Shown here: positions 25,357 to 30,445 of the stretch, one piece after another
How positions within the stretch are numbered: position 1 is the stretch's first letter
Layout: each line of letters begins with the position of its first letter
Source: Pelagimonas sp.
GTDB taxonomy: Bacteria; Pseudomonadota; Alphaproteobacteria; Rhodobacterales; Rhodobacteraceae
Length of the DNA stretch: 64,000 bases
Assembly (NCBI GenBank): GCA_025210265.1
Contig: JAOASD010000004.1
Coordinates: 310,001-374,000, forward strand
Direction of reading: 5' to 3'
Notes under the pieces: generated by a model
Told to the model about the DNA's origin: nothing
Seen by the model: the letters and a program-made list of their open reading frames with translations, nothing else
The model's database searches: none
Position numbers and translations under genes: made by a program

Positions 25357-26118
25357 CTACATCTCGCCCCCGGCGATCTCGATCGCCTGACCGTTCATGC
25401 TGCCGGAATTGGGGCCGCAGAGGAACAGCGCCGCTTCGGCGACCTCTTCTGGTGTGATCAGCCGACCATGCGGGTTGGCCCCAACCACGATCTTGATCGC
25501 CGCGTCGCGGGACATCCCGGTCCGCTCCATGATGCGGTCAATATTCTGCGGCACAATATCGGTGTCCACATAGGCCGGGCACAGCGCGTTGAACGTCAGG
25601 CCCGACCCCAGATAATCCGCTGCCAGCCCGCGGATCAGCCCGATCATCGCGTGTTTCGAGGCGGTGTAGCAGGGGGCACCCTTCAGCCCTTTGACCCCGG
25701 CAATGGAGCTGACGGCAATGACGCGCCCCCAATCGGTGCCGCGCATACTGCGCAGCGACTCGCGGATGGTCAGAAAGGCCCCGTCCAGATTGGTGGCCAT
25801 CATATTGCGCCAGAACGCCATGTCTGTCTTGTGCAAGGCGCGGCCTTCGGCCACCCCGGCATTGGGGACACAGATTTGGATCGGACCGCGTGCGGTGACA
25901 GCGCCGGCGATTCCCTCTGTGACCGATGTTTCATCCTGCACATCCATCACCAGCGGATGAATGCGGTCGCTTTGCGCGGCCTCCAGCGGCGCGGCACGGC
26001 GTCCGGTGATTGTGACCTGTGCGCCCTGATCCGCCAGAGCCCGCGCGATGGCCAGCCCGATGCCCGTGCCGCCGCCGGTGACGATGGCGTGTTTGCCGTT
26101 CAGATGTGTCATGTTCAT
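25357..26118 (-). CDS. SDR family oxidoreductase (3-hydroxybutyrate dehydrogenase-like)
   Basis: 253-residue short-chain dehydrogenase. The NAD-binding TGGGTGIGLAIARAL, NAG, catalytic Ser (AVSSIAGVKG) and Y-x-x-x-K (CYTASKHAMIGL) are in place. CPAYVDTDIVPQNIDRI... resembles D-3-hydroxybutyrate dehydrogenases, but the precise substrate is inferred only. The start at 26118 follows GGAGGAGAGCAGCCC. A second ATG two codons later is possible. It is divergent from the MBL-fold gene, with 131 bp between them. Confidence 0.85.
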   Translation of the reverse strand: MNMTHLNGKHAIVTGGGTGIGLAIARALADQGAQVTITGRRAAPLEAAQSDRIHPLVMDVQDETSVTEGIAGAVTARGPIQICVPNAGVAEGRALHKTDMAFWRNMMATNLDGAFLTIRESLRSMRGTDWGRVIAVSSIAGVKGLKGAPCYTASKHAMIGLIRGLAADYLGSGLTFNALCPAYVDTDIVPQNIDRIMERTGMSRDAAIKIVVGANPHGRLITPEEVAEAALFLCGPNSGSMNGQAIEIAGGEM

Positions 26119-26202
26119 GGGCTGCTCTCCTCCTCCGTTTGGAGCAGGGTAACCTGTCAGGAAGCCGAGGCAACAGGGCCCTAACGGCATCTTGGCTTTC
26201 TC

Positions 26203-26228
26203 ATTCACTCATGCGAATATATTCTTAA
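26203..26228. promoter_or_regulatory. ATTC/GAAT inverted-repeat operator candidate
   Basis: ATTC-N8-GAAT overlaps a perfect GAATATATTC palindrome (26215-26224), 25 bp before the MBL-fold start and in the divergent gap with the SDR gene. AT-rich ATTC/GAAT dyads are typical of ArsR-family sulfur regulators (BigR/SqrR type). No such regulator gene is in the window, so the assignment is inference. Confidence 0.4.
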
Positions 26229-26249: not shown

Positions 26250-27200
26250 ATGACACGGGTTCTATCCACGGTGGCCCTGATGATCGCGGCAGGCGCGGCT
26301 CAGGCCAGCGAAGACATTGCGGATATGTATCCGCAGTCCGAACTTTACAGCAAACCGGTGGAATTTGTCCCCGGCGTCTATTCCGCCATCGGGGCGACCG
26401 CGCCGCCGACCTATGAAAATTCCGGCCATAACAACAACCTGTCCTTTGTTGTCACCGGGGATGGGGTGGTTGTGGTGAATGCCGGGGCCAGTGCGCGCCT
26501 GGCCGCTGCGCTGCACGCCGAAATCAAGGCCGTGACCGATCAGCCGGTTAAGCTGGTGATCAACGAGAATGGCCAGGGTCATGCTATGCTGGGCAATTCC
26601 TACTGGGCCGATCTGGGGGTCGATATCCTCGCCCATGAGGACGCGATTCATGAAGGCGCGGAAGAGGGCGATTTCATCCTGCAGGGGATGGAACGCTATA
26701 ACAAAGACAAGGCCGAAGGCACGCGGCTGGTGGTTGCCAACCTGTCCTTTTCGGATCGCTATGATTTTGAAATGGGGGGCATGACGTTTGAAGTGCTGCA
26801 TCTTGGCGCGGCGCATGGGCCGGGGGATACACAGGTCTGGCTGCCCCAGCTGTCGACGGTGATTGCCGGAGACATTGCGTTTCATGAACGAATGCCTCCG
26901 ATCTTTGAAGGGGCCTGCACCAGCTGCTGGATAGAAACCTTTGAAGGCCCGTTTACGGATCTGGGTGCGACCTATGTGATTCCGGGCCATGGCCACCCGA
27001 CCAATATGGATGTGGTGACAGTGGGAACGACGGGCTATCTGCGCGACCTGCGTGAAAAGATCGGAGCCCATATCGACGAAGGCGGGGATCTGAGCGGGGC
27101 CTATTACGTGGATCAATCCGCCTGGACGCATCTGGACACGTTCGAGGAACTCGCCACCAAAAACGCCGGCCGCGTTTTTGAAGAGATGGAGTGGGAATAA
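26250..27200 (+). CDS. MBL-fold metallo-hydrolase-like protein with altered metal motif
   Basis: 316 residues with a signal peptide (VALMIAAGAAQASED). The fold is recognisable from VVTGDGVVVVNAGASARLAAALHAEI, LHLGAAHGPGDTQVWLPQLSTVIAGDIAF (His and Asp ligands) and VIPGHGHPTNMDVV. The usual HxHxDH at the first metal site is replaced by ENGQGH (residues 106-111), keeping only the last His. The protein may bind one metal or act differently from beta-lactamase-type enzymes. Similar exported proteins occur in sulfur-oxidation (SoxH-like) contexts. It is preceded by GAGGAG and followed by hairpin repeats that overlap its stop codon. Confidence 0.8.
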   Translation: MTRVLSTVALMIAAGAAQASEDIADMYPQSELYSKPVEFVPGVYSAIGATAPPTYENSGHNNNLSFVVTGDGVVVVNAGASARLAAALHAEIKAVTDQPVKLVINENGQGHAMLGNSYWADLGVDILAHEDAIHEGAEEGDFILQGMERYNKDKAEGTRLVVANLSFSDRYDFEMGGMTFEVLHLGAAHGPGDTQVWLPQLSTVIAGDIAFHERMPPIFEGACTSCWIETFEGPFTDLGATYVIPGHGHPTNMDVVTVGTTGYLRDLREKIGAHIDEGGDLSGAYYVDQSAWTHLDTFEELATKNAGRVFEEMEWE

Positions 27201-27223
27201 CGCTGCGCAGGCAGCGTTATTCC
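27194..27223. terminator. Perfect 13-bp stem-loop over the MBL-fold gene stop
   Basis: GGAATAACGCTGC (27194-27206) pairs perfectly with GCAGCGTTATTCC (27211-27223) around GCAG. The TAA stop is inside the left arm. It probably terminates or stabilises the transcript end. Confidence 0.6.
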
Positions 27224-27391
27224 GGCGGGAAAGCGGTCTTTTTGGTACAAAAAGATCCGCACCCGCACCCATCCACTCTGGACGCTGTCCTCTCCTGCTG
27301 CGCAGGCAGCGTTATTCCGGCGGGAAAGCGGTCTTTTGGGTACAAAAAAGATCCGCCCCCGCCCCCGACCATTCTGGACGCCGGCCCCTCC
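27202..27391. repeat. Tandem duplication of a 95-bp hairpin unit
   Basis: Two head-to-tail copies (27202-27296 and 27297-27391). Each begins GCTGCGCAGGCAGCGTTATTCC and contains GCGGTCTTTTnGGTACAAAAA(A)GATCCGC, which can fold into a second stem-loop. This accounts for most of the 333-bp gap between the MBL-fold and methyltransferase-like genes. No ORF is supported inside it. Confidence 0.75.
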
Positions 27392-27400
27392 GCCCGCGCC

Positions 27401-27533: not shown

Positions 27534-28016
27534 ATGTGGAAATGGATCGACATTCCCCCGGTCTGGTTGATCGGCTCGCTTTGCCTTGCCTGGTGGCAAA
27601 AGACGCATCACGCCATGGGATTGAATTTTGGTCCTGTGGTGGCCGATCTGATTGGCGGCCTGCTGGTCGGAGGTGGTGTGATCCTGATGGCGCTGGCCGT
27701 GCATGAAATGCGGCGTCAACGCACCACGGTCATTCCGCATCAGGAGGCAGGCCGGCTCGTCACCAGCGGTATTTTCAAACGCACCCGCAACCCGATTTAT
27801 CTGGGGGATGCCATGGTTCTGGCAGGCATGATTCTGTATTGGGATGCCGTGCTGGCACTGCCCCTGATCCCGCTGTTTGTCTGGGTGCTTGAGACCCGCT
27901 TTATCCTACCCGAAGAGGATCGCCTGCGACGCAAGTTCCGCATGGGCTTTGCCAAATATGAACGCGACACCGGGCGGTGGGTGACGGTCAAGGCAGCGGA
28001 CAAACCCTCGGGTTAG
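27534..28016 (+). CDS. Isoprenylcysteine carboxyl methyltransferase-like membrane protein
   Basis: 160 residues with four hydrophobic segments. The C-terminal half has RNPIYLGDAMVLAG and LPEEDRLRRKFRMGFAKYERDTGRW, the signature of the ICMT/PEMT (NnrU-like) membrane methyltransferase superfamily, where these residues bind S-adenosylmethionine. The substrate in bacteria is unknown. It lies between the MBL-fold and rhodanese genes, an association also seen in sulfur-metabolism loci. The start at 27534 follows GGAGCC. Confidence 0.75.
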   Translation: MWKWIDIPPVWLIGSLCLAWWQKTHHAMGLNFGPVVADLIGGLLVGGGVILMALAVHEMRRQRTTVIPHQEAGRLVTSGIFKRTRNPIYLGDAMVLAGMILYWDAVLALPLIPLFVWVLETRFILPEEDRLRRKFRMGFAKYERDTGRWVTVKAADKPSG

Positions 28017-28027
28017 GCGCTGTGGGC

Positions 28028-28543
28028 CTATGGCAGCAGGGCGGCTCGTGCGGCGGCCATGTTTCCCGCTGTCCCTGCGTAAATCGGCAGGCCGCGCGTC
28101 AGCCAGCCAGGGCCGTTGCGCCCGCCGACCATGCCTTCGCGCACATCAACCAGCCCCGGAAATCCCTGTTTCGCCAAAACGCTGGTCACATGTCCGGTGC
28201 GATTCCCGGTGCGACAGATCAGCGCCAGAGCTTTGTCCGGGTTGGTCTGCCGCAGCGTGATCAGGTCGCTCACGAAGCTGTCAGATGTCATGTCCAGCCC
28301 CACCGCCCCCTCGGCCACGCCGGTCTGAGCCCATTCTTCGGGGCGGCGAATATCTATCAAAAGGATCGTGCCTGCGCGGCGGGCAGACAGGGCTTCGGGC
28401 GCGCTCATCACGGCGACGGTGGTGCCTGATTGCGTGTCGGACTGGGCCAGAACCGGCGTGTACAGGCCGCAAAAGGCGATCATTGCGCCTAGAAAACCCC
28501 GCCGCGAGGCGATTTTGACAGCAGAGGTGACAACGGGTCGCAT
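28028..28543 (-). CDS. Exported rhodanese-like protein
   Basis: 171 residues. The N-terminus has a Tat-like signal (SRRGFLGAMIAFCGLYTPVLA). The rhodanese domain follows with ILLIDIRRPEEWAQTGVAEGAVGLDM and the active-site loop ALICRTGNRTGH (Cys about residue 110), where the persulfide would form. It likely handles sulfane sulfur in the periplasm. It is convergent with the methyltransferase-like gene, whose stop is 11 bp away. Its upstream region has an ATTCAA direct repeat. Confidence 0.85.
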   Translation of the reverse strand: MRPVVTSAVKIASRRGFLGAMIAFCGLYTPVLAQSDTQSGTTVAVMSAPEALSARRAGTILLIDIRRPEEWAQTGVAEGAVGLDMTSDSFVSDLITLRQTNPDKALALICRTGNRTGHVTSVLAKQGFPGLVDVREGMVGGRNGPGWLTRGLPIYAGTAGNMAAARAALLP

Positions 28544-28870: not shown

Positions 28871-30445
28871 GTGAGAATTGGTACGCCAAGTGAGGTCGAA
28901 AAGGGCGAAAATCGCGTTGCGATGACGCCGGATTCGGCCCGTCAGCTGCAAAAGCTGGGCTATGAGTGTGCGATCGAGAAGGGCGCGGGCAAACCCGCCG
29001 GTTTCTCGGATGCAGATTATGAGGCCGCGGGGGTCGCGATCATCGACACCGCCGAGGCCCTGTGGGCAGATGTGGACATTATTGCAAAGGTCCGCATTCC
29101 CACGACAAGCGAATTGGATCGGCTGACCGCCGACAAGACGCTGATCACCTTCTTTAATCCGGGCGGCAACGAAGCCGGTCTGGAACAGGCCAAATCCAAA
29201 GGCGCGAATGTGATCGCCATGGAAATGGTGCCGCGTATTTCGCGCGCGCAGAAAATGGACGCGCTGTCGTCCATGGCCAATATTGCGGGCTACCGCGCCG
29301 TGATCGAGGCAGGCAACAACTTTGGCCGCTTCTTCACTGGGCAGGTGACCGCTGCGGGCAAGGTGCCCCCGGCCAAGGTGCTGGTTGTCGGTGCTGGTGT
29401 GGCCGGTCTGGCCGCCATCGGGACCTCGACCAGCCTGGGTGCGATCACCCTGGCCTTTGACGTGCGCCCCGAAGTGGCAGAGCAGGTCGAATCCATGGGC
29501 GCTGAATTTGTCTATCTGGATTTCGAAGAAGAGCAGCAGGATGGCGCGTCCACCGGCGGCTATGCGTCGGTCCAGTCCGAGGAATTCCGCAACGCGCAGC
29601 TGGCCAAGTTCCGTGAACTGGCCCCCGAGGTGGACATTGTCATCACCACCGCGCTGATTCCCAACCGCGAAGCACCCGAGCTGTGGACCAAGGACATGGT
29701 CGACGCGATGAAGCCGGGCTCGGTCATTGTTGACCTCGCGGCGGAAAAGGGCGGCAACTGCAAACTGACCGTCGCAGACGAGAAAATCGTAACCGAGAAT
29801 GGCGTGACCATCATCGGCTATACCGATTTCCCCTCGCGCATGGCGACCCAGGCCTCGACCCTGTACGCGACCAACATCCGTCACATGATGACTGACCTGA
29901 CCCCGGAAAAGGACGGTCAGATCAATCACGACATGGAAGACGACGTGATCCGTGGCGCCACCGTCACCTATCAGGGCGAGATCACCTTCCCGCCGCCGCC
30001 GCCCAAGGTGCAGGCCATCGCGGCCAAGCCCAAAGCGGCCGAGCCAGAGCTGACACCGGAAGAAAAGCGCGCCGCCGAAGTGGCCGCGTTCAAGGCGCAG
30101 ACCAAACAGCAGGTCACTCTGCTGGGTGTCATGGCCGTGCTGATCCTGGGTGTGGGTCTGATTGCGCCCGCCAGCTTCATGCAGCACTTTATCGTGTTTG
30201 TGCTGTCGGTCTTTGTTGGCTTCCAGGTGATCTGGGGCGTTGCGCATTCGCTGCACACGCCGCTGATGGCTGTGACCAACGCGATTTCCTCCATCATCAT
30301 TCTCGGCGCGCTGATGCAGATCGGTTCGGGTGGCGGGTTCCTGGTGGTGCTCCTTGCTGCCATCTCGGTCTTCTTTGCCGGGATCAACATTTTTGGCGGC
30401 TTCCTCGTGACACGGCGGATGCTCGCCATGTTCCAGAAATCCTAA
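28871..30445 (+). CDS. pntA: Proton-translocating NAD(P) transhydrogenase, subunit alpha
   Basis: 524 residues starting with GTG. The soluble NAD(H)-binding domain I has MRIGTPSEVEKGENRVAMTP, VLVVGAGVAGLAAIGTSTSLGA and TTALIPNREAPELW; the C-terminal 130 residues form four membrane helices after a Glu/Ala-rich linker. The enzyme couples hydride transfer between NADH and NADP+ to proton translocation across the inner membrane. AAAGGGG precedes the start. It is followed at 13 bp by pntB. Confidence 0.95.
   Translation: MRIGTPSEVEKGENRVAMTPDSARQLQKLGYECAIEKGAGKPAGFSDADYEAAGVAIIDTAEALWADVDIIAKVRIPTTSELDRLTADKTLITFFNPGGNEAGLEQAKSKGANVIAMEMVPRISRAQKMDALSSMANIAGYRAVIEAGNNFGRFFTGQVTAAGKVPPAKVLVVGAGVAGLAAIGTSTSLGAITLAFDVRPEVAEQVESMGAEFVYLDFEEEQQDGASTGGYASVQSEEFRNAQLAKFRELAPEVDIVITTALIPNREAPELWTKDMVDAMKPGSVIVDLAAEKGGNCKLTVADEKIVTENGVTIIGYTDFPSRMATQASTLYATNIRHMMTDLTPEKDGQINHDMEDDVIRGATVTYQGEITFPPPPPKVQAIAAKPKAAEPELTPEEKRAAEVAAFKAQTKQQVTLLGVMAVLILGVGLIAPASFMQHFIVFVLSVFVGFQVIWGVAHSLHTPLMAVTNAISSIIILGALMQIGSGGGFLVVLLAAISVFFAGINIFGGFLVTRRMLAMFQKS

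Follow-up and report, generated by a model that had tools for sequence, protein, structure and literature searches.

SoxH of Paracoccus and its roseobacter relatives: an MBL-fold Sox protein with a fixed, unusual set of residues in place of the HxHxDH motif

The window analysed here, a stretch of 64,000 nucleotides from a contig of Pelagimonas sp. (JAOASD010000004.1, positions 310,001 to 374,000 of the forward strand), contains a gene for an MBL-fold protein that we identify below as soxH. An earlier note, made from the sequence alone, had described the open reading frame at 26250-27200 as an exported MBL-fold protein without the HxHxDH metal motif; the reading frame and its coordinates were confirmed, as was the fold (by Pfam, AlphaFold2 and VIA-align). 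The gene, the residues discussed in this work and the neighbouring genes are the following:

25357..26208, minus strand: gene for a short-chain dehydrogenase (SDR; PF00106/PF13561), the divergent neighbour of soxH
26250..27200, plus strand: soxH, encoding a 316-aa MBL-fold protein with a signal-like N-terminus
26250..26306, plus strand: probable Sec signal peptide, residues 1-19 (MTRVLSTVALMIAAGAAQA), from the sequence read by eye
26478..26480, plus strand: N77, in place of the Asp of the DxG motif (row comparison)
26565..26585, plus strand: E106-N-G-Q-G-H-A112, within which N107-x-Q109-x-H111-A112 is the counterpart of HxHxDH
26814..26816, plus strand: H189, counterpart of ligand His196 (alignments and row table)
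26871..26873, plus strand: D208, counterpart of ligand position 221 (alignments and row table)
26988..26990, plus strand: H247, counterpart of ligand His263 (alignments and row table)
27534..28016, plus strand: gene for a PEMT/ICMT-like methyltransferase (PF04191/PF04140)
28028-28543, minus strand: rhodanese gene (PF00581) whose start is signal-like, transcribed towards the soxH-methyltransferase pair
28871..30445, plus strand: open reading frame that is putatively pntA, for subunit alpha of NAD(P) transhydrogenase

Several of these neighbours recur beside soxH. Among 128 soxH loci (a set that includes the window copy, may hold a species twice and has many flanks of only 1.5 kb), homologues of the SDR gene were found in at least 93, of the methyltransferase gene in at least 100 and of pntA in at least 100. 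The rhodanese gene has a homologue in only 4 of the 90 soxH loci that span at least 9 kb, and a role tied to it is accordingly a weak candidate. Besides, a gene that we presume to be kynureninase-like occurs in 64 of the 128 loci; a link to the kynurenine pathway was set aside, with the signal-like N-terminus of the protein and its co-occurrence with SoxB taken as the stronger guide. Two copies of a direct repeat of ~95 bases follow directly on the stop codon of soxH (27202-27399), matching over 52 nt at 98% and then over 55 nt at 80% identity. Even with as many as 3 mismatches allowed, the 33-base core of this repeat had no further occurrence in the genome.

The closest plasmid relatives of the encoded protein are Paracoccus proteins. 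It is 68.7% identical, over 99% of the query, to a protein encoded on plasmid pPAN3 of Paracoccus pantotrophus (NZ_CP038206.1), where tblastn placed soxX, A, B, C, D, F and G on one strand, followed by the soxH homologue (this stretch of the plasmid is unannotated, and soxY, Z and E were outside the query set). A Ruegeria plasmid copy is 66.1% identical, and the annotated stretch there holds soxC and soxB. From the soxX-G neighbours on pPAN3 and the soxC/soxB setting in Ruegeria, it follows that the protein is SoxH. Judged by sequence comparison, then, the window gene is soxH, coding for a known protein, and an ordinary copy that lies away from its cluster. P. pantotrophus SoxH resembles the window protein in its identical ENGQGH and its kept ligands; the two differ in setting, the P. 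pantotrophus gene following soxX, A, B, C, D, F and G, whereas the window gene stands beside the SDR, methyltransferase and pntAB genes.

A comparison with SoxH-like and quinoprotein-relay MBL proteins had been proposed in the earlier note. The alignment could be made, and the protein turned out to be SoxH itself, whereas membership in the quinoprotein relay family did not hold: TIGR04559 (SoxH_rel_PQQ_2; quinoprotein relay metallohydrolase 2) is its best NCBIfam match and covers nearly its full length, yet at 136 bits (135.9 in a second figure) against a cut-off of 280. Relatives that we assume, rather than scored, to belong to this family (L130-L135, 27-31% identical) differ from SoxH in reading THMHPDH.

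The presence of soxH goes together with that of soxB. Across 198 genomes of the window's family, 85 had a match at E 1e-20; 76 of these carry SoxH proper (at least 280 bits), and the other nine carry only sister or HxHxDH relatives. SoxB was matched at E 1e-100 in all 76 SoxH genomes versus 53 of the 122 others (Fisher 1e-19, a value that overstates independence since the genomes are related). It scored above the curated cut-off in 75 of the 76, the remaining genome (G159) having a 387.7-bit piece below it, and the SoxB of one genome (G193) contains an internal stop codon. A further set of ten SoxH genomes, of which seven belong to other families, has SoxB above the cut-off throughout. For the sister clade introduced below, SoxB was found in 13 of 14 genomes (p 0.04), several of which also carry SoxH.

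Physical linkage is looser. The distance between soxH and soxB is at most 20 kb in 24 of the 76 genomes, and in the other 52 it is greater or the two genes lie on different contigs. Eleven of 90 loci had sox neighbours (L128, with a 34% SoxB-like match only, was left out), a count that comes mostly from the loci nearest to the window and is not a prevalence, for which 24 of 76 is the better guide. The window's own genome carries one SoxH, that of the window, and here the gene does not lie within the sox cluster, a location that is a common trait and no requirement. SoxB of this genome (852 bits) belongs to a sox run on a different contig, whose genes are provisionally soxV, W, X, Y, A, B, C, D, E-like and F, with SoxB alone scored against a model; soxH was absent from the 20 kb read there.

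With the SDR, methyltransferase and pntA neighbours kept in 93, 100 and 100 of the 128 loci, and with soxH beyond 20 kb of soxB, or on a separate contig, in 52 of the 76 genomes, it is conceivable that window-type soxH no longer serves the Sox pathway and acts together with the SDR, methyltransferase and transhydrogenase encoded beside it. We hold this to be quite improbable: every one of the 76 genomes has a SoxB match, also where soxH lies far off, as in those 52, and the active-site residues are identical in both settings. Moreover, a 2024 survey describes soxF and/or soxH apart from the cluster in six Sulfitobacter species (PMC11034169), and another paper reports soxG and soxH as separated from the other sox genes (PMC10221251).

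The fold of SoxH was assessed by profile and by model. PF00753 (MBL) matched at 26.7 bits versus a cut-off of 22.7, and the AlphaFold2 model (pLDDT 86.4, pTM 0.84) aligned in VIA-align with 8d2z (Z 31.4, 273 residues, 2.5 A) and with CphA 3f9o (Z 26.0, 224 residues, 2.5 A). Such matches speak for fold and not for ligands, and absence from the VIA list was not taken as exclusion. On the evidence of this model, SoxH is predicted to have the alpha-beta-beta-alpha MBL fold. Among the subclass models, B2 scored higher than B1 (49.6 versus 37.0 bits), with a B2 cut-off of 240. The N-terminus is hydrophobic and ends, when read by eye, in ...AAQA-SED; we infer that SoxH is probably exported to the periplasm. 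A CxxC pair (CTSC) at residues 223-226 alternates with DTDA or similar letters among close relatives.

To place the residues of SoxH in register with those of canonical MBL enzymes, SoxH rows (60, of which 56 were used) were aligned profile to profile with eight HxHxDH relatives. This alignment ran gapless from before the motif strand to past the LGN anchor, and the sister clade aligned with the same eight relatives equally without gaps in the motif stretch. HMM alignments of SoxH with B2 enzymes (CphA) and with 8d2z, also gapless through the motif, agree on the register. According to the profile-profile and HMM alignments, positions 116, 118, 120 and 121 are occupied by N107, Q109, H111 and A112; N107-x-Q109-x-H111-A112 thus stands where HxHxDH would be. 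E106 is one residue ahead of the motif, and the surviving His111 takes the position of Asp120. The letters E106-N-G-Q-G-H111 pointed out in the earlier note are indeed there, but to equate ENGQGH with HxHxDH sets the register off by one, and the gapless alignments rule this out. The suggestion that Glu, Asn and Gln side chains might bind metal was built on this wrong register: E106 corresponds to position 115, no ligand position. Other observations in the note hold, namely the presence of H189 (in AAHGPGD), D208 (in AGDIAF) and PGHGHP. Nor is an HxHxDH motif displaced elsewhere in the chain, where the only HxH begins at residue 247.

The altered motif is a fixed property of a clade. From 185 loci we obtained 169 distinct rows that matched the query at E 1e-6, of which 135 read EN[G/A]QGH (the window counted once), 24 read [TS]G[GS]QDH and 10 have other motifs. 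All 135 rows of the SoxH clade carry the motif, 133 as ENGQGH and two as ENAQGH, and H189, D208 and H247 are each kept in 134 of them, the remaining row being partial and lacking that part. The codons for E106, N107, Q109, G110 and H111 vary synonymously across the 135 rows, with GAG in 79 and GAA in 56 for E106, and CAT in 68 and CAC in 67 for H111. Decay or sequencing error as the source of the motif is therefore excluded, since the motif is fixed in 135 rows while its codons change synonymously.

The 24 sister rows read G, Q, H and R at positions 116, 118, 120 and 121 (hereafter GxQxHR), and all of them keep the counterparts of Q109, H111, H189, D208 and H247. His is found at the position of H111 in all 159 SoxH and sister rows versus Asp in nine of the 10 others. 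Position 77, on which the earlier note is silent, is Asn in 135 of 135 SoxH rows and Asp in all 24 sister rows and in nine of the 10 other relatives. H60 and N77 are invariant in SoxH and absent from the sister clade. Both groups have an invariant N61; N63 does not vary in SoxH and is present in two of the 24 sister rows and in each of the 10 other relatives.

Those 10 other rows comprise eight with HxHxDH, one with NxHxDH (L129) and one with HxHxVR (L082). L129, a relative of 33% identity, reads NHHGDH, which puts Asn at 116, a feature of B2 enzymes too; it also has Asn at 196 and 221. L082, encoded in the same genome as the window (227148-227663 of another contig), is an MBL-fold protein reading HYHAVR, and 8d2z has identical letters; it keeps positions 116 and 118 and lacks 120 and 121, a mirror image of SoxH.

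In a tree of 83 of 170 rows (the window counted twice), which were selected to represent the spread and from which the motif columns had been removed, one branch set off the 51 SoxH rows (SH-aLRT 98) and another the 23 sister rows (SH-aLRT 92). The distinct subfamily that had been surmised for this protein is thus supported, inasmuch as the EN[G/A]QGH rows group together independently of their motif. As several HxHxDH rows have long branches, and such branches meet in the tree (L129, L160, L184 and others), the root and the order in which the motif classes arose are left unsure.

How SoxH might handle metal can be considered from the residues that went and those that stayed. Site 1 of MBL enzymes (116, 118, 196) would be lost, N107 and Q109 standing at 116 and 118 and H189 alone being left. 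Site 2 would be kept in a rebuilt form: H111 substitutes for Asp120, positions 221 and 263 are occupied by D208 and H247, and H189 (196) lies beside the site. The nearest analogy is offered by the B2 MBLs (CphA, Sfh-I), which resemble SoxH in fold, in Asn at 116 and in the one site left. They differ in keeping H118 and D120 and in having C221, where SoxH has Gln, His and Asp. SoxH shares only Asn116 and His263 among N116, H118, D120, C221 and H263 and is accordingly not a B2 enzyme. We know of no tested ligand set that has His at 120 and lacks all three of His118, Asp120 and His121.

One metal in site 2 is favoured because B2 enzymes share N116 and bind only Zn2; a paper on these mono-zinc enzymes states that N116 replaces H116 and that Zn1 is absent (PMC10740994). 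Much as B2 enzymes keep Zn2, SoxH would most likely bind one ion, zinc or iron, at site 2. The single metal that the earlier note had offered as one possibility would fit the kept H111, D208, H247 and H189, and Asn instead of Asp at 77 would be expected to weaken the usual second shell. We further infer that SoxH probably serves the Sox pathway within the periplasm. Its substrate would be a sulfur intermediate of that pathway, either bound to SoxYZ or carried by a small molecule, and its chemistry hydrolysis or thiol transfer. That SoxH is a Sox-pathway protein whose rebuilt site 2 holds one metal is, in our estimate, about an even call.

The same residues admit another reading, in which SoxH is a pseudoenzyme, a metal-free MBL fold that binds or positions a Sox partner such as SoxG. 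All four HxHxDH ligand positions are changed (to Asn, Gln, His and Ala), N77 replaces an Asp, and in each of the 12 loci where tblastn found SoxG, which lies ~0.9 kb upstream of SoxH, its motif is intact (H[AG]HPDH). However, H111, H189, D208 and H247 are invariant, whereas a bare scaffold would need none of them. With regard to the partner, SoxG was missing at E 1e-80 from 30 of the 76 SoxH genomes, the window's included, and SoxH is missing from 20 genomes that have SoxG; in the window's genome the best SoxG-like match is 36% identical. An obligate SoxG partner is thus unsupported, and a division of labour between SoxG and SoxH is possible but not required, because SoxG is missing at that threshold from those 30 genomes. 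Taken together, we regard the pseudoenzyme as the main, though doubtful, alternative to the one-metal site.

Alternatively, the available His/Asp/His set and the sulfur-oxidation setting could point to a mononuclear non-heme iron enzyme that oxidises persulfides with a 2-His-1-carboxylate site, as ETHE1 does. The iron ligands of ETHE1 presumably correspond to positions 116, 196 and 221, the first of which is Asn in SoxH. Besides, ETHE1 was absent from the profile and HMM match lists, one of which holds the best 25 matches, which is weak evidence. ETHE1 itself is described in one paper as an MBL-fold enzyme whose single iron, bound in a 2-His-carboxylate site, serves to oxidise glutathione persulfide (PMC4819959). 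We consider an ETHE1-like SoxH unlikely.

Reverting to a single metal in a rebuilt site 2, the GxQxHR sister clade (24 rows, e.g. L112, L163 and L164) invites a broader comparison. It differs from SoxH in having Arg at 121 and in keeping Asp at 77. Two of its genes (L163 and L164) lie on annotated plasmids in runs of ArsR - permease - thioredoxin - MBL - OsmC, a gene content that suggests a sulfide or metal stress operon. More tentatively, SoxH and this sister clade could together form a group of sulfur proteins of the MBL fold whose only metal site is made up of His, Asp and His (120, 221, 263), with Gln at 118, a set for which we found no description. The group would carry out a periplasmic step on bound sulfur that is left to none of the other Sox proteins. 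If so, the HxHxDH-bearing proteins named SoxH would do another job.

These considerations bear on how SoxH has been described. Two papers call the function of soxH unknown (PMC11237559, PMC4891895). In a third, Sulfitobacter soxG and soxH are presented as thiosulfate-induced periplasmic zinc metallohydrolases (PMC10221251); the zinc in this label may rest on fold alone, while the link to sulfur is supported. A role in freeing sulfate from SoxY is proposed, mainly for Campylobacterota, in the first of these papers (PMC11237559) and in two more (PMC10045233, PMC9122950). A protein of the SoxH type, possibly orthologous, encoded on a plasmid of the campylobacterotan Sulfurovum mangrovi (L160), near soxXYZA and 30.7% identical over 77% of the query, has an intact THTHDDH, unlike the window SoxH. 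In that instance, the SoxY-sulfate idea therefore concerns a protein with an intact motif. Halomonas genomes that have no sox cluster are reported to carry a soxH homologue (PMC9237845), which may be of another kind than the SoxH described here but would otherwise count against the Sox link. The name SoxH has also been applied to genes beside PQQ-dependent dehydrogenases. In the openly licensed literature, represented mostly by titles and the openings of abstracts, we found no statement of a SoxH without HxHxDH.

In summary, the active site of SoxH, a known protein found in sulfur-oxidising bacteria, is genuinely altered: where related enzymes hold two metals, it has an unusual set of residues that is constant across the rows of its clade. 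On this basis, the protein may bind a single metal or be metal-free. In Paracoccus and its roseobacter relatives, SoxH lacks the motif that the label of zinc metallohydrolase implies and, if this holds, the one name SoxH covers at least two kinds of protein.
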